Origin: Phascolarctobacterium sp.
Lineage (GTDB): Bacteria; Bacillota; Negativicutes; Acidaminococcales; Acidaminococcaceae
Direction of reading: 5' to 3'
Assembly (NCBI GenBank): GCA_017467905.1
Contig: JAFUKD010000009.1
Location: forward strand, 1-63,778
DNA: 63,778 nucleotides
Part shown: piece after piece, positions 19,527-63,535 of the stretch
Position numbering within the stretch: the stretch's first letter is position 1
Layout of the letters: each line of letters opens with the position of its first letter
Notes under the pieces: generated by a model
What the model was told of the DNA's origin: nothing
The model's input: only the letters and a program-made list of their open reading frames with translations
Database searches by the model: none
Translations under genes and position numbers: made by a program

Positions 19527-19602
19527 GCTACTATAGCTCAGCTGGTAGAGCATCTCATTCGTAATGAGAGGGTCGCAGGTTCGAACCCTGTTAGTAGCTC
19601 CA
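19527..19602 (+). tRNA. tRNA-Thr (anticodon CGU), CCA encoded
   Basis: The cloverleaf is complete. The acceptor GCTACTA pairs with TAGTAGC, the D-stem is GCTC/GAGC, and the anticodon stem TCTCA/TGAGA holds loop TTCGTAA with CGT at 34-36. The T-arm is GCAGG TTCGAAC CCTGT. The discriminator T is followed by a genomically encoded CCA. It reads ACG codons. Confidence 0.96.
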
Positions 19603-19613
19603 GAGAAAAACAG

Positions 19614-19635
19614 CGCCCGCACACAAGTGCGGGCG
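19614..19635 (+). terminator. GC-rich hairpin after the tRNA
   Basis: CGCCCGCAC pairs with GTGCGGGCG across a short loop. The T-run is weak (TAAATATTTC), so termination efficiency is uncertain. Confidence 0.55.
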
Positions 19636-19693
19636 TAAATATTTCTTGCACACTTCTAATTTTACAGTTATAATAGCATTGCAATTCAATAAC

Positions 19694-19733
19694 AGACAGT
19701 TCGTGACCATCCTGTCTATAAACAAAACTACGG
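19694..19733 (+). promoter_or_regulatory. preQ1-I riboswitch aptamer
   Basis: Stem P1 is AGACAG (19694-19699) with CTGTCT (19712-19717). The loop contains TTCGTGACCAT. An A-rich tail, ATAAACAAAACTACGG (19718-19733), can form the H-type pseudoknot with the loop. This arrangement closely follows the preQ1-I class, including the AACAAAAC tail I recall from the Thermoanaerobacter aptamer. It lies upstream of a radical SAM gene and a YhhQ-type transporter, an appropriate regulon. The platform is at 19764-19794. Confidence 0.85.
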
Positions 19734-19763
19734 AGCCTTGCTGAAAATATTTCAGTTTATTTG

Positions 19764-19794
19764 GGATGCGCCGTAGATTGGTGCATCCTTTTTT
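19764..19794 (+). terminator. Expression-platform terminator of the preQ1 riboswitch
   Basis: GGATGC (19764-19769) pairs with GCATCC (19783-19788) and is followed by six Ts. CCGTAG in the loop region (19771-19776) is complementary to CTACGG (19728-19733) in the aptamer tail. Ligand binding, which locks the tail into the pseudoknot, would free the terminator. Without ligand, tail and loop can pair as an antiterminator. The predicted logic is that preQ1 turns the operon off. Confidence 0.8.
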
Positions 19795-19800
19795 ATTTAC

Positions 19801-19915
19801 AGCTTACCAATAAATACCGCTATACGTTGTCACGGCTTGCTTGCTCGACGTATGCAGGTACGCCTTCTGTTTATAAGCTTCGTGTTCGTAGTTTAGCAGT
19901 ACTTTTTAAAAGCTT
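19801..19915 (+). repeat. Intergenic repeat family, divergent copy
   Basis: The stretch contains the family core TTGCTTGCTCGACGTATG and related short blocks seen at 21346-21460, 34090-34215 and 63445-63535. It lies between the riboswitch terminator and the radical SAM gene. No coding potential is seen. Confidence 0.5.
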
Positions 19916-19930
19916 TCAGGAGATGTGAAA

Positions 19931-20650
19931 ATGGCACAAGTCCCCTTTGAATTTAGATATTCCAAGTTAATAGAGAAGAACCCTCGTGAGATTGTACTGT
20001 TGCGTGGTAATGGCTGTAAATGGCGGCGCTGTCGCTTCTGTGATTATCACACTGACTTTTCTCTAAATGAAAAGGAAAACTTTGAGTTGAACAGTAAGGT
20101 GCTTGCCCAAGTTACGGGGGGATTTGGCAGGCTGGAGGTAATAAATTCCGGAAGCTTCTGTGATTTGGATGCAGAAACTATTAAGCTTATCATTCAGCTT
20201 TGCAGGGAACGGGCAATAACGACAGTTTATTTTGAATGTCATTGGATGCATCGTCTGCTTATCGCAGATTTTCGCAAAAGCTTTGCGGAAAAGGGTATTA
20301 CTGTTAAATTTAAGATAGGTGTAGAAACTTTTGACAGCCTGTTTCGCGAAAGCTATTTGGACAAGGGAATGGGAAGTGCTACGCCGGAGGAGATTGCCCA
20401 ATATTTTCAGCAGGTTTGTTTGCTGCAGGGCTTACCGGGGCAAAGCAAGGAAAGCATGGCTAAAGACATAGAGCTTGGCTTAAAATACTTTGAGCGGGTG
20501 TGCGTGAACATTATGGTTCCTAATACTAAAGCCATTGTGCCTGACCCGCAGGTTGTAAAAATTTTTCGAGAAGAGCTTTACCCTTTGTATAAGGATGATG
20601 ACAGGGTAGATATTTTATTGAATAATACGGATTTTGGAGTAGGCGTTTAA
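19931..20650 (+). CDS. Radical SAM protein, probable queuine lyase (QueL-like), CX4CX2C cluster motif
   Basis: This ~239-residue protein has an N-terminal cluster motif CKWRRCRFC, so the spacing is CX4CX2C instead of the usual CX3CX2C. The codons were checked. The rest fits a compact radical SAM barrel: a glycine-rich GNGC start, INSGSF, KFKIGVETFD and GLPGQS. It sits behind a preQ1-I riboswitch and overlaps a YhhQ-type queuosine-precursor transporter by 1 bp. A radical SAM subgroup from gut bacteria that converts queuine to preQ1 is known, and this gene is a good candidate for it by context. The family assignment was not tested by alignment. The ATG at 19931 follows AGGAGATG. Confidence 0.7.
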   Translation: MAQVPFEFRYSKLIEKNPREIVLLRGNGCKWRRCRFCDYHTDFSLNEKENFELNSKVLAQVTGGFGRLEVINSGSFCDLDAETIKLIIQLCRERAITTVYFECHWMHRLLIADFRKSFAEKGITVKFKIGVETFDSLFRESYLDKGMGSATPEEIAQYFQQVCLLQGLPGQSKESMAKDIELGLKYFERVCVNIMVPNTKAIVPDPQVVKIFREELYPLYKDDDRVDILLNNTDFGVGV

Positions 20651-21336
20651 TGCGTAATGAGTTTTTACTGATTTTAAATTTAATAGTGGTTTATAGTAGT
20701 GTAATTTTGTGGTACTACTTCCTGAAAGAAAAGGGGTTGTACTGCTGGACGGTGCTTGCTACCATCACGGCAAATATTGAGGTTATGATTTTGGTGGATG
20801 CCTTTGGCATGGAACAAACCTTGGGGAACATTGTCTTTGCTTCTACTTTTTTGGTGACGGATATTTTAAGTGAGCTGTATGGGAAGAAGCAGGCAGATAC
20901 AGCTGTTAATTTAGGTATTGCAACTTCGGTGACGTTTATTATTTTGTCTCAGTTTTGGCTGTACTACACTCCTGCGCCGGCAGACAGGGTGTTTCCGCAT
21001 ATTGAAGCAGTGTTTACCAACACACCGCGCATTATGCTGATGGGGCTTTTGGTTTATGGCGTTGTTCAGAAATTTGACGTATGGCTCTATCATTGGTGGT
21101 GGTCCTATACTAGCAGGAGGTACGGTAGCAGCAGGAAATATCTTTGGCTGCGTAACAATGGCTCAACTATGGTGTCCCAGCTTTTGAACACAGTGCTGTT
21201 TACCGTGGGTGCTTTTTACGGAGTGTACAGCGGAGAGGTATTAATGGAAATTATTGTATTCAGTTATGCAATATTTTTTATGACAAGCCTGCTTGATACA
21301 CCCTTTGTTTATCTTGCTCGCTATCTACATAAATAA
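20650..21336 (+). CDS. yhhQ: Queuosine precursor transporter (YhhQ/VUT family)
   Basis: This 228-residue protein has six hydrophobic segments. The family signature is clear: VFASTFLVTDILSELYGKK (about residues 59-77), a first helix with NIEVMILVDAFG before it, and RNNGSTMVSQLLNTVLFT near 165-182. YhhQ proteins import preQ0/preQ1, and some import queuine. Its start overlaps the stop of the radical SAM gene, and both are under the preQ1 riboswitch, which supports a salvage operon: import, conversion and insertion by a tRNA-guanine transglycosylase encoded elsewhere. Confidence 0.85.
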   Translation: MRNEFLLILNLIVVYSSVILWYYFLKEKGLYCWTVLATITANIEVMILVDAFGMEQTLGNIVFASTFLVTDILSELYGKKQADTAVNLGIATSVTFIILSQFWLYYTPAPADRVFPHIEAVFTNTPRIMLMGLLVYGVVQKFDVWLYHWWWSYTSRRYGSSRKYLWLRNNGSTMVSQLLNTVLFTVGAFYGVYSGEVLMEIIVFSYAIFFMTSLLDTPFVYLARYLHK

Positions 21337-21341
21337 AACTA

Positions 21342-21460
21342 GCAATAAGCACCGTTATGCTTTGTAGCAGCTCGTTCGCTTTCTCGACTACTTTAAGTGC
21401 GCCATTGCTTAACGAATTACGGTATCTCGTGCTTTCCAGCACTTCTAAATTGGTTTTAAG
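21342..21460 (+). repeat. Intergenic repeat family, copy
   Basis: TAAGCACCGTTATGCTTTG at 21346 is followed by a TCGTTCGCTTTCTCGAC block and, further on, by GCTTTCCAGCACTTCTA. The first 40 bases are nearly identical to 63448-63485; the last part resembles 34180-34200. It begins within a few bases of the yhhQ stop. Confidence 0.65.
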
Positions 21461-21519: not shown

Positions 21520-23046
21520 TTATTCTACTACGTCTTCTACTTTATATTTCTTGCCTGTGAGCAAGCATTCAATACGCGCGTTGACAACGGGATGATTGCT
21601 TAACCCTTGGGCTGTATGCAGTGCGTGGCGGAGTGCGGGAGTTAAATGCTCGCTGCCCCATTCATCCAAAATCATACAGGCGATACCGCGAGGCCAATCG
21701 TACAGGGAAGTAAGGGCGGCAATAATAATGCCAATACCTTCGCCCGGATGGTTGCGCAAATAACGCAAAGGCACCAGAAGTGCGTTCTGGTCTATTAAAT
21801 ATTGGTAGATATTTTTTTCGACAACGTCCAAAACCTGCTTGGAGCGTTCGTCGCCAGTGAAGGCGAGCAGGTAGGGAAGAAGCTGAATTTCTGTGGGATG
21901 TTCACCAAAGTAAGAGAACAGGCGTTGCCAAATGTCGATGTCCAGCTCGTAGGCGAAATCGCACAGGGGATAGTTTACGCCTTCATCCGTAATGAGGGTA
22001 GCATTGATTTCTTCCTGCCAATCCTTTTGGTAAATAATTTTGTCGCAGGCAGCGATGAGTGTGTGGCATTGGTTTGCAGAAAGCTTGTACCAGTTTTGGG
22101 TATCGACGAGAGTGTTCAAGCCAATACACAGTGCTACGATATCTAAAATTTCTTCAGGAGAGGCGGCGTACTCTTTGGCGTGACGCAGGAAGTTATCTAA
22201 AAGCTGTTCCAGGTCAATAGAAGTAGTATTAAAGTTTTGCTCTATTACCGCTGGTGCGAAGTTGTTGAGCAAGAGCAGGAAGTTGTTTAAAATTGCGCCT
22301 GCACCTTTGTAGGTGGCGTAGTCAATTTGTTCTGCCTGCAATGCTTCGGCAAGCCTACCTTCGATAATCATCTTTACAGAAAGAGGAGGGTATTCGATTG
22401 TAATATCATAGCCGTTTTCGATAAGCCATTGCTGTTTGCCGGGAGTATTGAAATTTGCGGAGTTAATGGCGTAGACCTTACCCCAGCTATTGGTACAATG
22501 GAGCAGCTGCCAAATTTCTTCTTGGGGTGCGTAATTAGTAATGCGGCAACCATACAGGAAGAAGAAGGTAAATTCTTCGCAGCGGGCAAGGGTGAGTAAA
22601 TCCTGCCATAAATCGGGATGCTTTTCTTTAATATTTGCCATACCGTACAAACCAAAGATAAGCAAAGAAAATTTTACCGGTTCGCGATGGGGGCAGTTAT
22701 AAAAATATTCCTCTGCCAGCTCCATGGCTTCCGGAGACAAATCATCAGCAGTAAATTTTTCCAAGAAGGGGTCGCAAATACCTGCAACCACAATTTTGCA
22801 AAGGTGGTCATACAAACGGCGCTTGCTTTCCAAGCAGGGAATAGCAAGGTGCTGTTTTAAAAGCTTAACGGCTTGAGTGGCACCTTCAATGTCAGGAGGA
22901 ACCTCCGTCGTGTAGTAGTAAGCGTCTTCTGCGCCAAGGGGTCTGGGAACTGTGGGCATGGGGTCGTCTGGCAAAACCTCGCCTGTGAAACGGCCTTCTT
23001 CATCTATATTATTCTTCACATATTCAAAAATACTTTGCGGATTCAT
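21520..23046 (-). CDS. Hypothetical protein, 508 residues, helical
   Basis: I recognise no named family. The protein looks soluble, acidic and mostly alpha-helical, without signal peptide or membrane segments. The C-terminal half has repeated helical blocks of about 40 residues (for example PLRYLRNHPGEGIGIIIAAL, then DEWGSEHLTPALRHALHTA), suggestive of a HEAT-like solenoid. It contains several Cys but no clear metal motif. It is transcribed alone, away from ftsH, with the parS site in the shared upstream region. The start ATG follows AAGGAAGATTGT on the minus strand, an acceptable ribosome binding site. Confidence 0.7.
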   Translation of the reverse strand: MNPQSIFEYVKNNIDEEGRFTGEVLPDDPMPTVPRPLGAEDAYYYTTEVPPDIEGATQAVKLLKQHLAIPCLESKRRLYDHLCKIVVAGICDPFLEKFTADDLSPEAMELAEEYFYNCPHREPVKFSLLIFGLYGMANIKEKHPDLWQDLLTLARCEEFTFFFLYGCRITNYAPQEEIWQLLHCTNSWGKVYAINSANFNTPGKQQWLIENGYDITIEYPPLSVKMIIEGRLAEALQAEQIDYATYKGAGAILNNFLLLLNNFAPAVIEQNFNTTSIDLEQLLDNFLRHAKEYAASPEEILDIVALCIGLNTLVDTQNWYKLSANQCHTLIAACDKIIYQKDWQEEINATLITDEGVNYPLCDFAYELDIDIWQRLFSYFGEHPTEIQLLPYLLAFTGDERSKQVLDVVEKNIYQYLIDQNALLVPLRYLRNHPGEGIGIIIAALTSLYDWPRGIACMILDEWGSEHLTPALRHALHTAQGLSNHPVVNARIECLLTGKKYKVEDVVE

Positions 23047-42695: not shown

Positions 42696-42741
42696 AAAAT
42701 CGTTATAAGCACCAGTATATTTTGGAGTAGCTTTAACGATT
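42696..42741 (-). terminator. Hairpin/terminator after thiW
   Basis: AAAATCGTTA and TAACGATTTT are perfect complements around a 25-base loop. The left arm is shared with the intergenic repeat family at 34085-34100. Confidence 0.65.
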
Positions 42742-53691: not shown

Positions 53692-55152
53692 GTGGATTTG
53701 TTTAAATATACCGCACATGAGCTGCATGAAAAACTCGTAAATAAAGAAATCACTGCTGTTGAACTTGTTAACAGCGTTTATGCTCGCATTGACGAAGTTG
53801 AAGAACAAGCTAATGCTTATATCTCTATGAGCAAAGAAGAAGCTTTGGCTCAAGCTGAAAAGGTTGATGCTAAAATTGCTGCTGGCGAAGCTATCGCTCC
53901 TTTGGCTGGCATTCCCGTTGTTTTCAAAGACAACATCAACATTGCTGGTCAAGTAACCTCTTGCGCATCCAAAATGCTTGATGGCGTAAGCGCTATCTTC
54001 GATGCTCACGCTACTGAAAACCTGCGTAAAGAAGACGCTGTATTCCTTGGCAAGGCTAACATGGCAGAATTCTCCATTGGCAACACCACTGACAACTCCT
54101 TCTTTGGCGCTGCTCACAACCCTTGGAATTTGGACTGCGTTACCGGCGGCTGTGCTACTGCTGCTGCTGTTGCTGCTGGCGAAGCTATTTGGGCTTTGGC
54201 ATCCGATACCAGCGGTGATCTTCGTCAACCTGCTGCTTATGCTGGTTGCGTTGGCATTAAACCGACTTATGGTCGTGTTTCCCGTTTAGGTTTAGCAGCG
54301 TATGCTTCTTCCATGGACCAAATCGGTGCTGTAACCAAAGACGTTACTGACGCTGCTACCGTACTCAATGCTATCTGCGGTAAAGATGATAGAGATTCCA
54401 CTTCCTGGGCAGTAGAAACTCCTGACTTCACCCAAGCTTTGGTTGCAGACGTTAAGGGCTTGCGCATTGGTGTTCCCAAAGAATATTTTGGTGAAAATGT
54501 TGACGCAAAAATTAAAGCTGAAGTTGAAAAGGCTATTGAACAATACAAAGAGTTGGGCGCTGAAATCGTTGAGGTTTCCCTGCCCCATACCCAATATGCA
54601 GTAAGAACTTTCTATGTAATCGCTAATGGCGAAGCTGGTGCAAACTTTGCTCGCTATGACGGTGTACGCTATGGTTATCGCAATATGGAAGCTCAAAGCG
54701 CTTCTGATATGACTGCTCGCAGCAGAAACGAAGGCTTTGGCGAAGAAGTTAAACTGCGCTTGCTGTTTGGTACCCATGTATTGAGCAAAGGCTACTATGA
54801 AAACTACTATGTAAGAGCTATGAAGGTTCGCACCTTGATTCGCAACGACTTTGAAGAAGCTTTCAAACAATGCGACGTACTCTTGACTCCGACCACTCCC
54901 GTTCTGGCAGAAGCTTACAATACTGAAATGGATGCTTTCGCTAAATATGAATTGGACTTCACCACCGTTACTGCTAACTTGGCTGGCTTGCCTGCCATCA
55001 CTGTTCCCTGTGGTATGGTTGATGGTATGCCCGTTGGTATGCAATTGATTGGTAAAGTGCTTGATGAAGCAACTATTTTGAAAGCAGCTTATACCTTTGA
55101 ACAAGCTACTGACTTCCATAAAGCAATGGCACCGTTAGGAGGTAACAAATAA
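53692..55152 (+). CDS. GatA paralogue lacking the catalytic serines (pseudo-amidase)
   Basis: This is a 486-residue amidase-fold protein. Catalytic Lys79 remains (VVFKDN). The segment that should read [10 protein letters not shown] reads GGCATAAA at 152-159, two residues shorter and without the cis-serine. The nucleophile motif [10 protein letters not shown] reads SDTSGDLRQP, so the serine equivalent to Ser178 is Asp176. The rest follows the downstream GatA closely ([28 protein letters not shown]). Glutamine or asparagine hydrolysis by the usual mechanism should not occur. The gene is intact, starts at GTG behind AAGGAGG, and favours GCT, GAA, AAA and CAA codons. It overlaps gatB by 1 bp. Confidence 0.88.
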   Translation: MDLFKYTAHELHEKLVNKEITAVELVNSVYARIDEVEEQANAYISMSKEEALAQAEKVDAKIAAGEAIAPLAGIPVVFKDNINIAGQVTSCASKMLDGVSAIFDAHATENLRKEDAVFLGKANMAEFSIGNTTDNSFFGAAHNPWNLDCVTGGCATAAAVAAGEAIWALASDTSGDLRQPAAYAGCVGIKPTYGRVSRLGLAAYASSMDQIGAVTKDVTDAATVLNAICGKDDRDSTSWAVETPDFTQALVADVKGLRIGVPKEYFGENVDAKIKAEVEKAIEQYKELGAEIVEVSLPHTQYAVRTFYVIANGEAGANFARYDGVRYGYRNMEAQSASDMTARSRNEGFGEEVKLRLLFGTHVLSKGYYENYYVRAMKVRTLIRNDFEEAFKQCDVLLTPTTPVLAEAYNTEMDAFAKYELDFTTVTANLAGLPAITVPCGMVDGMPVGMQLIGKVLDEATILKAAYTFEQATDFHKAMAPLGGNK

Positions 55153-56594
55153 TGACTAAATACACTACCGTTATCGGCTTGGAAGTTCACGCTGAGCTGA
55201 AAACCGAATCTAAAGCATTCTGCACCTGCTCTGCAGAATTCACCAATGTACCTAACACCCACGTTTGCCCCGGCTGCCTTGGCTTGCCCGGCACTTTGCC
55301 TGTACTGAACAAACAAGTTGTTGAATTTGCAATTCGCGCTGGCTTGGCAGTAAACTGCGAAATTCAAAAATACAATAAATTCGACCGTAAAAGCTATTTC
55401 TATCCTGATTTGTGCACCAACTACCAAATCTCCCAATTGGATAAACCCATCTGCTTGGCTGGTCACATCGACATCAATGTTGACGGCGAAGAAAAACGTA
55501 TTGGTGTAACCCGTATTCATATGGAACAAGACGCTGGTAAACTGGTTCACAGTGGTGCAACCATCAGTACTTCTGACTTCTCCGCAGTTGACTACAACCG
55601 CGCTGGCGTAGCTCTGATTGAAATTGTTTCTGAACCTGATATGCGTAGTGCTGAAGAAGCTCGCGCTTATATGGAAAATCTGAAAGCAATTCTTGAATAC
55701 ACTGACGTTTGCGACTGCAAAATGCAAGAAGGCAGTCTCCGTTGCGATGCTAACGTATCCATTATGCCTGAAGGTGCAACTGAATTCGGCACTCGTGTTG
55801 AAATCAAAAACCTTAACTCCTTCCGTGCTTTGGTTCGCGCTATCGAATACGAAGTTGAACGTCAAAAAGAAGTTCTTGCAGAAGGTGGCCGCCTGATTCA
55901 AGAAACTCGTACCTGGGACGATGCTAATGGTGTAACCCTGTCCATGCGTAACAAAGAAACCGCAGAAGACTATCGTTACTTCCCGGATGCTGACCTTGTT
56001 CCCGTAATCATTGACGATGCTTGGATTGAACGCGTGCGTGCTGAACTGCCCGAACTTCCGGCTCAACGTCAAGCTCGTTTGATGGAACAACACGGCTTGC
56101 CCAAATACGACGCTTCTATCATCGTATCCACCAAAGCTATGGCTGAATACTTTGACGAAGCAGTTAAAACTGCAAAAGATGCTAAAGGCGTTTCCAACTG
56201 GTTGTTAGGTGACGTATCCGCTTACCTTAACAACGAAGGCATCACTATTTCTGAATTCAAAGTAACCCCTGCTCACTTGGCAGAGCTGGTTAACTTGACT
56301 AAAGACGGCGTGCTCTCCAGTAAGCTGGCTAAAAAAGTATTTACCGAAATGCTTAAAGAAGACAAAGCTCCGGGCGCTCTTGTAAAAGAATTGGGCTTGG
56401 AACAAGTAAGTGACGAAGGTGCGATTATGAAATTGGTTGAAGAAACCATTGCAGAAAATCCCCAATCCGTTGCAGACTTCAAAGCTGGTAAAGATCGTGC
56501 TATCGGCTTCCTTGTTGGTCAAATCATGAAAAAATCCAAAGGCAAGGCAAACCCCGGCATGGTTCAAAAAATGCTCAAAGAAAAAATGCAATAA
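55152..56594 (+). CDS. gatB: GatB paralogue of the divergent first gatCAB operon
   Basis: The 480-residue protein has the GatB catalytic domain (GLEVHAEL at 9-16, zinc cysteines CTCS and [19 protein letters not shown]) and a C-terminal helical tRNA-binding tail domain (from about 290). It aligns over its whole length with the second GatB. Positions that are usually conserved have changed: EEDAGK is EQDAGK (Glu125 kept, Gln126), RAGVPLIE is RAGVALIE, and DLSKNYQ is DLCTNYQ. Kinase and transamidase function may be retained or altered. The GatA partner lacks its glutaminase serines, so any ammonia would need another source. Confidence 0.85.
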   Translation: MTKYTTVIGLEVHAELKTESKAFCTCSAEFTNVPNTHVCPGCLGLPGTLPVLNKQVVEFAIRAGLAVNCEIQKYNKFDRKSYFYPDLCTNYQISQLDKPICLAGHIDINVDGEEKRIGVTRIHMEQDAGKLVHSGATISTSDFSAVDYNRAGVALIEIVSEPDMRSAEEARAYMENLKAILEYTDVCDCKMQEGSLRCDANVSIMPEGATEFGTRVEIKNLNSFRALVRAIEYEVERQKEVLAEGGRLIQETRTWDDANGVTLSMRNKETAEDYRYFPDADLVPVIIDDAWIERVRAELPELPAQRQARLMEQHGLPKYDASIIVSTKAMAEYFDEAVKTAKDAKGVSNWLLGDVSAYLNNEGITISEFKVTPAHLAELVNLTKDGVLSSKLAKKVFTEMLKEDKAPGALVKELGLEQVSDEGAIMKLVEETIAENPQSVADFKAGKDRAIGFLVGQIMKKSKGKANPGMVQKMLKEKMQ

Positions 56595-57187: not shown

Positions 57188-58660
57188 GTGAAGTTATATG
57201 AACTTACGGCTCACGAATTGCATGATAAATTGATGGGCAGAGAAATTAGTTCTGTGGAACTTACCAATGCCTTGTATGAACGTATTGATGAAGTAGAAGA
57301 CAAAGTTAATGCTTATGTTACCTTGGATAAAGAAAATGCCTTGGCGCAAGCCGCTAAGGTTGATGCTAAAATAGCTAAAGGCGAAAGCATTTCTGTTTTG
57401 GCAGGCATCCCCGGCGGTATTAAGGACAATATTTCTACTAAAGGCTTGCGTACTACCTGCTCTTCCAAAATGTTGGGCAACTTTATTCCCATTTATGATG
57501 CTCACGTTATCGAGAGGCTACGTGCTGACGAAACCATCTTCCTAGGCAAAACCAATATGGATGAATTTGCTATGGGTTCCACTACGGAAAGCTCATACTT
57601 TGGTGTCACACGCAATCCTTGGAATTTAGAGCGTGTTCCCGGTGGTTCTTCCGGTGGTAGTGCCGCTGCAATTGCCGCTGGCGAAGCTATTTGGACTTTA
57701 GGCTCTGATACTGGTGGTTCCATTCGTCAGCCAGCTTCCTTTAATGGTTGTGTCGGTATTAAACCTACTTATGGACGTGTTTCCCGTTATGGATGTGTGG
57801 CTTTTGCTTCTTCCTTAGATCAAATTGGTCCTATTACTAAGGATGTTACCGATGCGGCCATTGTGCTTAATTCTATTTGCGGTAAGGATGAACAGGACTC
57901 TACCTCTTTAAATGTAGAAGTACCTGACTTTACCAAAGCTTTGGTGCAGAATGTAAAGGGTTTGCGCATTGGCTTGCCCAAAGAATATTTTGGTGAAGGC
58001 ATTGACCCAAGGGTTAAGTCAGAAGTTGAAAAGGCAGTTAAGAAATACGAAGAGCTGGGCGCAGCAATCGTAGAAGTTTCTTTGCCCCACACTGAATACG
58101 CAGTAATTACCTACTACATCATTGCTCCTGCAGAAGCAAGTGCCAACCTTGCCCGTTATGACGGTGTGCGTTATGGTTATCGCAATCTGGAAGCGAAATC
58201 TGCGGCGGAAATGGTTACCTTGAGCCGTACTGAAGGCTTCGGAGCGGAAGTGCGCCGTCGCATCATGCTTGGTACTTACGTTTTAAGCAGTGGTTATTAT
58301 GATGCTTACTACAATAAAGCAATGAAGGTGCGCACCCTCATCCGTCGTGACTTTGAAGAAGCTTTCCAAAAGTGCGACCTGCTGTTGACCCCTACTTCTC
58401 CCGTAGTTGCTTATCCTATTGATGGAAAAATGGATCCCTTGTCCATCTATATGCTTGACGTGACTACTATTCCTGTAAATATGGCGGGCTTGCCCGGTAT
58501 TTCCATTCCCTGTGGTTTTGTAGATGGTTTGCCTGTAGGTATGCAGCTTATTGGCAAGGTGTTGGATGAAGCAACTATTTTGCGTGCCGCTTATACCTTT
58601 GAACAAGCTACTGGATATCATAAAGTGTTTGCACCGCTGGGAGGTAAACATAATGACTAA
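57188..58660 (+). CDS. gatA: Aspartyl/glutamyl-tRNA amidotransferase subunit A
   Basis: The 490-residue amidase has a complete Ser-cisSer-Lys triad: Lys79 (GGIKDN), Ser154 in [10 protein letters not shown] (152-161) and Ser178 in [10 protein letters not shown]. It hydrolyses glutamine and passes ammonia to GatB. The start is GTG at 57188 after GGGGGG; a longer frame reaching back to 57122 lies inside gatC. The gatB start lies within its last codons (8-bp overlap). Compared with the copy at 53692 it is the conventional enzyme. Confidence 0.93.
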
Positions 58661-60095
58661 ATATATTACTGTTATCGGTCTTGAGGTTCACGCTGAACTG
58701 AAAACTAAATCCAAAGCATTTTGCTCCTGCTCTACGGAGTTTGGCGGTGCGCCCAACACTCACATTTGCCCCGTTTGTTTGGGCATGCCCGGAGCGTTGC
58801 CTGTTTTGAATGAGCAGGTTGTGGAGTTTGCTATTCGTGCCGGCTTGGCTTTGAACTGCGATATAAAATATTTTAATAAGTTTGATCGTAAAAATTATTT
58901 TTATCCGGACCTTAGTAAGAATTACCAAATCTCCCAATTCGATAAACCTATCTGTTTGAATGGTTATATAGACGTTGATGTAGATGGCGTTGAAAAACGT
59001 ATAGGTATTACTCGTATTCATATGGAAGAAGATGCAGGCAAGCTGGTGCATAGTGGCGGGAACATCAGCACTTCTGACTTTTCCGCAGTAGATTACAACC
59101 GTGCAGGCGTACCTCTGATTGAAATTGTTTCTGAACCGGATATGCGTAGTGCGGAAGAAGCGCGTGCTTATTTGGAAAACTTGAAGGCGATTTTGGAATA
59201 CACCGATGTTTGTGACTGCAAGATGCAAGAGGGAAGCTTGCGCTGTGACGCTAATATTTCCTTAATGCCCGAAGGCGCAACAGAGTTTGGTACTCGTGCC
59301 GAGGTTAAAAACTTGAACTCCTTTAGAGCGCTGGTGCGTGCCATTGAATACGAAGTGGAACGACAAAAGGAAATTCTTGAAAATGGTGGAAGAGTTATCC
59401 AGGAAACTCGCACTTGGGATGATGCCAACGGCAAAACTCTTTCCATGCGCAGTAAGGAAGAAGCTCATGATTATCGTTATTTTTCTGAGCCTGACCTTGT
59501 GCCCGTGGAACTTGACGACGCTTGGGTGGAACGTATACGCGCTGAATTGCCAGAGCTTCCTGCTCAGCGTCAAGCTCGTTTAATCGCAGAGCTTGGATTG
59601 CCAAAATACGATGCCTCAATCATTGTTTCTAACAAGGCTATGGCGGAATACTTTGATGAAGCGGTGAAGACTACAAAGGATGCTAAGGGTATTGCCAACT
59701 GGTTGTTGGGGGACGTATCCGCTTACCTTAACAACGAAGGTATCACTATTTCTGAGTTTAAAGTTGCCCCTGCTCACTTGGCAGAACTGGTTAACTTGAC
59801 TAAAGAGGGTGTGCTCTCTAGCAAATTGGCGAAAAAAGTATTTGCTGAAATGCTCAAAGGAGACAAGTCGCCTAAGATTTTAGTGAGGGAGTTAGGGCTG
59901 GAGCAAGTTAGTGACGAAGGAGCTATTATGAAATTGGTTGAGGAAATTCTTGCAGAAAATCCCCAATCCGTAGCAGACTTCAAGGCTGGCAAAGAGCGTG
60001 CCATCGGCTTCTTGGTTGGTCAAATCATGAAAAAATCCAAAGGCAAGGCAAACCCCACCATGGTTCAAGCAATGCTTAAAGAAAAAATGCAATGA
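58653..60095 (+). CDS. gatB: Aspartyl/glutamyl-tRNA amidotransferase subunit B
   Basis: This 480-residue GatB has GLEVHAEL, zinc cysteines (CSCS...CPVC), [19 protein letters not shown] (Glu125 and Glu126), [14 protein letters not shown] and the C-terminal YqeY-like tail. It phosphorylates the tRNA-bound Glu or Asp and amidates it with ammonia from GatA. I chose the ATG at 58653, behind GGGAGG, not the earlier ATG within gatA. Confidence 0.93.
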
Positions 60096-63444: not shown

Positions 63445-63535
63445 TTATAAGCACCGTTATGCTTTGGCTCATTCGCTTGCTCGATGTACGCTTCGTTTTC
63501 GTGGTACAATCTTGTTTCGCATCGTTATATGTACT
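63445..63535 (+). repeat. Intergenic repeat family, copy
   Basis: TTATAAGCACCGTTATGCTTTGG begins at the stop of the YbjQ gene and is followed by TCATTCGCTTGCTCGATG. The first 40 bases are nearly the same as 21346-21389. Confidence 0.65.

Follow-up and report, generated by a model that had tools for sequence, protein, structure and literature searches.

A terminating preQ1-I riboswitch of type I, which imposes product feedback on a queuine-salvage operon, is in our judgment the very probable (approximately 0.88) function of the leader preceding queL and yhhQ in Phascolarctobacterium sp.; product feedback here means that preQ1, a precursor for tRNA modification, would shut off the enzyme producing preQ1. 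The window, that is, the whole stretch of DNA analyzed here, comprises 63,778 nt (assembly GCA_017467905.1, contig JAFUKD010000009.1, positions 1 to 63,778, forward strand). The assembly has completeness 99.7% and a listed contamination of 4.4%, and a plasmid similarity search yielded no match. What computation shows directly comprises the aptamer, which is conserved and covaries, the promoter and terminator, both competing folds, the gene families, and the pathway content of the genome.

Organization of the leader and operon

The features of the locus, all on the + strand, are as follows.

19527–19599, +, tRNA gene, 5' of the riboswitch promoter
19613–19636, +, G+C-rich hairpin between the tRNA gene and the promoter
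19646–19674, +, strong sigma-70-type promoter TTGCAC-17-TATAAT (sequence reading; a scan gives TATAAT with 10/12 matches)
19694–19734, +, predicted preQ1-I type I aptamer (independent covariance model, type I features)
19694–19699 and 19712–19717, +, P1, AGACAG/CTGTCT, 6 bp (sequence reading)
19700–19711, +, aptamer loop TTCGTGACCATC, with the specificity C at 19711
19718–19727, +, A-rich L3 (sequence reading)
19728–19730, +, CUA signature, first half of the tail CUACGG
19728–19733, +, tail CUACGG, antiterminator 5' strand (transcript folding; conserved in relatives)
19740–19756, +, small hairpin within the antiterminator, GCTGAAAATATTTCAGT (folding)
19763–19795, +, intrinsic terminator, 11-bp stem GGGATGCGCCG/TGGTGCATCCT followed by a T-run (folding, shuffles)
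19771–19776, +, CCGUAG, antiterminator 3' strand, inside the terminator stem and loop
19918–19922, +, Shine-Dalgarno AGGAG of queL, ~120 nt 3' of the terminator (sequence reading)
19931–20650, +, queL, queuine lyase by its match to PDB 6p78, 239 aa
20650–21336, +, yhhQ/QPTR-type queuosine precursor transporter (COG1738), 228 aa (TIGR00697, PF02592)

These coordinates reproduce the layout drawn in the earlier note (P1, an A-rich tail, CTACGG, and CCGTAG inside the terminator) and its two-gene operon (open reading frames 19931–20650 and 20650–21336). Transcription would be expected to start at about 19681–19683, and a –35/–10 arrangement like that of the window is also observed 5' of the aptamer in five related genomes. 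The terminator stem occupies 19763–19789, and its T-run, 19790–19794. The queL Shine-Dalgarno is located ~185 nt 3' of the aptamer, that is, outside the aptamer and beyond the terminator. The start of queL is ATG 19931, with AGGAG 8 nt upstream; GTG 19925 was rejected as the start, being too close to the Shine-Dalgarno and not retained in relatives. One base at 20650 (TAATG) belongs both to the stop of queL and to the start of yhhQ, and therefore the two genes probably form one transcript with coupled translation.

An intergenic repeat with the core ATAAGCACCGTTATGCTTTG, similar across ~90 nt, is found in 42 copies in the genome at no more than 3 mismatches (0 for the reversed control). In the window its copies are at 19801–19829, 21345–21364, 42696–42724, and 63447–63466; thus, a diverged copy separates the riboswitch terminator from the queL Shine-Dalgarno, occupying a stretch that has no counterpart in relatives, and another one lies 3' of yhhQ. 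The element from 19801 onwards might contribute its own regulation.

Genes and pathway content

The first gene, described in the earlier note as encoding a radical SAM protein, is by sequence similarity QueL, queuine lyase: its product matches PDB 6p78 “Queuine lyase” with 174 bits (E 2.9e-50, residues 9–238). The similarity is near full-length, with CX4CX2C common to both proteins and ordinary divergence elsewhere. The radical SAM motif of QueL is C29-X4-C34-X2-C37, and the motif together with its neighbours is invariant in six homologues. QueL appears to make preQ1 from queuine. Assignment of the second gene to YhhQ-type transporters, also made earlier, is borne out by TIGR00697 (174.3 bits, cut-off 50.95) and PF02592 (151 bits). 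As E. coli YhhQ carries preQ0/preQ1 and not queuine (PMC11130926), the substrate of the window YhhQ is not certain, with queuine as the candidate. Given the identity of QueL, import most likely concerns queuine, with its cleavage to preQ1 taking place intracellularly, which narrows the previous salvage reading (queuine or preQ1).

Family searches for the pathway genes covered the whole genome. The genes tgt, queA, and queH are grouped on contig 23, and nothing over the cut-off is found for queC, so that the lack of de novo genes, previously noted in the window, holds genome-wide for this key gene. QueT and IU_nuc_hydro (PF01156, QueK-type) hydrolases are absent from the genome. One PTPS (QueD-like) protein is present; it is not evidence for de novo preQ0 synthesis, because queC-bearing relatives carry it and have a second PTPS near queC. 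This genome content is consistent with free queuine being salvaged to preQ1.

Downstream of the operon, a 508-aa open reading frame at 21520–23046 on the – strand has no NCBIfam or Pfam match at E 0.01.

Identification of the aptamer

The covariance search suggested in the earlier note gave a divided outcome. The Rfam model RF00522 at its gathering score (39) matches neither the window nor the genome nor any of 17 queL loci; in a permissive scan it scores 18.6 bits at the window aptamer, among several weak matches, and 19.4–21.2 bits at the same pre-queL site in five related genomes. At gathering, it matched B. subtilis alone among 14 controls and missed the verified type III preQ1-I switch of E. 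coli (PMC10622847), and hence the class cannot be delimited by this threshold. The failure of RF00522 was therefore rejected as a refutation and read as a limit of the model, the base-by-base match to type I and the genomic association being strong; “no hit to the preQ1-I model”, which the earlier note would have counted against the assignment, would have misfired at Rfam's threshold.

Because of the low RF00522 scores, a covariance model of our own was built from 34 distinct aptamers found in Clostridia at queL loci and, within the window's family, at queT loci of genera other than its own; the window's genus contributed no sequence. This independent model identifies 19694–19734 with 68.8 bits (E 3.2e-19), the next best match in the window having 10.4 bits, and finds one strong copy in the whole genome, followed by a match of 15.2 bits.

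The 41-nt aptamer is almost invariant over the 34 sequences. P1 is 99.5% paired in their alignment, with two pairs changed on both sides (A-U to C-G or G-C; A-U to U-A), and the loop–tail ceiling pair equivalent to A12-U32 is A-U in 33 sequences of 34 and G-C in one. The covariation score is lost when the partners are slid, and is reached by 0 of 500 shuffles. The architecture is of the H-type, with the P1 hairpin, the A-rich L3, and a tail able to pair with the loop, and the aptamer is located 5' of the queuosine-related genes queL and yhhQ. A full Watson-Crick P2 register (CGUG with UACG) was dropped, as the base after CUA is free to vary (C, G, U, A) and its supposed partner G9 is invariant; the comparison agrees instead with the type I register, in which A12 pairs with U32.

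Type I aptamers are marked by UU after the P1 5' strand, UC before the P1 3' strand, and CUA in the tail, with contacts formed by G5, U6, U7, C8, A12, U16, C17, C18, A30, C31, and U32 (PMC11625349, PMC8752633). In the window we observe TT at 19700–19701, TC at 19710–19711, and CTA at 19728–19730, and the loop between G19699 and C19712 has the type I length, with bases in register. On these sequence features, 19694–19734 is a class I, type I preQ1 aptamer, so that the preQ1-I assignment made earlier stands and is refined to type I, as opposed to the type II known from B. subtilis. Binding of preQ1 by this aptamer is thus predicted and, since the type I group is reported to bind two preQ1 molecules, each window RNA may, by analogy, accommodate two.

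Terminator and antiterminator

The terminator has a folding energy of –17.9 kcal/mol (z-score –4.7), with 0 of 200 shuffles as good. Folding of transcripts with growing ends gives P1 alone, then P1 with the antiterminator, then P1 with the terminator. In the transcript ending at 19776 the CUACGG/CCGUAG helix and P1 together yield –20.2 kcal/mol, while for the complete leader the fold with P1 and the terminator has –29.2 kcal/mol vs. –21.3 for the antiterminated fold (these energies ignore the pseudoknot). As the finished terminator fold is more stable by ~8 kcal/mol, antitermination must be kinetic. The two structures are exclusive, because the antiterminator loops in the terminator 5' arm and CCGUAG is situated within the upper terminator stem and loop. 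Folding and comparison thus reveal a G+C-rich stem, a T-run, and a competing antiterminator, and the mutually exclusive pairing of CTACGG and CCGTAG proposed earlier agrees with the folding, with conservation in six genomes, and with the shuffle test.

These six genomes are the window's, three more from its genus, and two from a sister genus. Their terminator stems vary both in sequence and in length, yet CCGTAG is kept, except that locus L005 has CCGTGG in its place, which still pairs via G-U. An exact complement of the tail arises between the aptamer and the terminator in 0.5% of dinucleotide shuffles of the window, and 7 of 60 loci have an exact complement of their own tail (shuffled mean 0.36, maximum 3 in 1000), figures that are indicative, as the loci are related. 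The seven comprise five of the Phascolarctobacterium set, L047, and L070. In view of this count, CTACGG/CCGTAG was rejected as a general antiterminator design for most Clostridia.

Scanning of a genome collection with the QueL alignment yielded 80 loci, 76 of them outside Phascolarctobacterium. In the latter, yhhQ directly follows queL in 74 cases (the remaining two loci are cut off by a contig end shortly after queL), and the aptamer precedes queL in 70, while three of the six aptamer-less loci have less than 100 nt of upstream sequence. A terminator-like hairpin with a T-run is found within 170 nt of 54 of these 70 aptamers.

Of 54 clostridial loci (L015–L090), 25 have the pentamer GATGG at the terminator's 5' edge, compared to the shuffled mean of 3.0 and maximum of 10. 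This pentamer is the complement of CCAUC, the aptamer loop strand with the ligand-contacting U16 and C17, and in folds computed before the terminator 3' arm this strand pairs with the terminator arm in many Clostridia. Two antiterminator designs seem to serve one aptamer. We lean, by a modest degree, towards a large queL-yhhQ clade of Clostridia and Negativicutes in which a dual-ligand type I aptamer is coupled to termination via two antiterminators, CUACGG/CCGUAG in Phascolarctobacterium and CCAUC/GAUGG in many Clostridia; if true, a cooperative two-preQ1 switch would gate RNA polymerase directly.

Proposed mechanism and alternative explanations

At low preQ1, the tail CUACGG of the growing transcript would pair with CCGUAG as soon as the latter emerges, and the antiterminator would trap the terminator 5' arm, allowing for transcription of queL-yhhQ. 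YhhQ would then bring in the vitamin-like base queuine, QueL would cleave it to preQ1, and TGT, QueA, and QueH would rebuild preQ1 into queuosine on tRNA. At high preQ1, the aptamer would be occupied, with the pseudoknot holding the tail CUA and the antiterminator blocked, so that the terminator would fold and transcription would stop. This OFF response to preQ1 is predicted since C and U of CUA are engaged in the ligand-bound aptamer, and its direction would follow the precedent of the class.

A mainly translational action of the aptamer, with the downstream hairpin being a constitutive or unrelated attenuator, would agree with the type I aptamers of Carnobacterium antarcticum, which repress translation and leave transcript levels unchanged (PMC11625349), but we consider it improbable given the remote position of the queL Shine-Dalgarno behind a strong terminator, the retention of the CCGTAG complement in the terminators of six genomes, and the hairpins with T-runs following most of the other queL aptamers. 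Slightly less probable still is a ligand other than preQ1, queuine or another 7-deazaguanine, which would leave the switching logic unchanged: the operon deals with queuine, and specificity could imaginably be tuned by the variable loop positions N10 and R11, but the window has counterparts of the bases contacting preQ1 at the alpha and beta sites of type I (G5, U6, U7, U16, C17, A30, and C31 in C. antarcticum numbering; PMC8752633). Moreover, in relatives the same aptamer sequence precedes queT, as in other genera of the window's family, or sits near queD/queC, as in G013 and G025, where a second aptamer copy is close to a PTPS gene and queC. Finally, the RF00522 score below gathering might be taken to mean that the P1 hairpin and the terminator are unrelated, resemble a riboswitch by chance, and leave the gene pair under the promoter alone. 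The E-value of 3e-19 speaks against such a coincidence, and comparative data refute it, the aptamer being conserved across Negativicutes and Clostridia and, at locus L042 (Emergencia), identical to that of the window over all 41 nt; its probability is negligible.

Comparison with known systems

Riboswitch control of queL is already known, since a preQ1-I riboswitch precedes queK-qrtT-queL in Clostridioides difficile (PMC11477304). That system is similar to the one considered here in having a preQ1-I aptamer over queL and a queuosine-precursor transporter, and in salvage of queuine to preQ1 (PMC11477304). However, its transporter is the ECF component QrtT, and not YhhQ/QPTR, and its operon includes queK, whereas the window's genome has no QueK-type hydrolase; the type I aptamer with a terminator is one more difference from the C. 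difficile switch. The C. antarcticum type I aptamer has the same UU, UC, and CUA signature and the 12-nt loop with C8, A12, U16, and C17 in register, but regulates translation (PMC8752633), while the window's leader has a terminator, a far Shine-Dalgarno, and a longer L3. The Bacillus subtilis switch also acts by termination via competition of the aptamer 3' part with an antiterminator; unlike the window, it has a type II aptamer (AC before the P1 3' strand, one ligand) and controls the de novo queCDEF operon (PMC11625349).

Type I examples in a review act on translation (PMC11625349), and we found no publication demonstrating a terminator mechanism for a type I aptamer, although our coverage of the literature is incomplete and priority is not claimed. 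What the locus would add is riboswitch-controlled queuine salvage with product feedback in gut Phascolarctobacterium and many Clostridia, with modest extras: the type I aptamer tied to termination, the two antiterminator designs, and the Rfam threshold missing these aptamers. As a near-invariant type I aptamer is missed at Rfam gathering, annotation by Rfam alone under-counts such switches. With natural terminator-linked type I aptamers, one could ask whether control of transcription becomes sharper when two preQ1 molecules bind cooperatively.

Additional observations

In G061, from the same order, the type I aptamer precedes queT, not queL. Its queL-yhhQ locus (L006) has, ~60 nt 5' of queL, a different leader, CGGAG-TTTTGCCTTTGCACC-CTCCG-TAAAAAAGAAAGAGGAG, in which the Rfam preQ1 search finds no match; this is perhaps another kind of translational switch. 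In G002, from the same genus (locus L101, about 1606–2130), queL is frameshifted near codon 19 and has lost ~66 codons, and the riboswitch, terminator, and yhhQ are retained despite the broken queL.

Elsewhere in the window, 695–792 and 1358–1455 are 98-nt copies, 90% identical, each with a terminator-like hairpin and a shared stretch. Long diverged direct repeats at 54152–55448 and 57654–58949, ~3.5 kb apart, probably represent a duplicated gene set.
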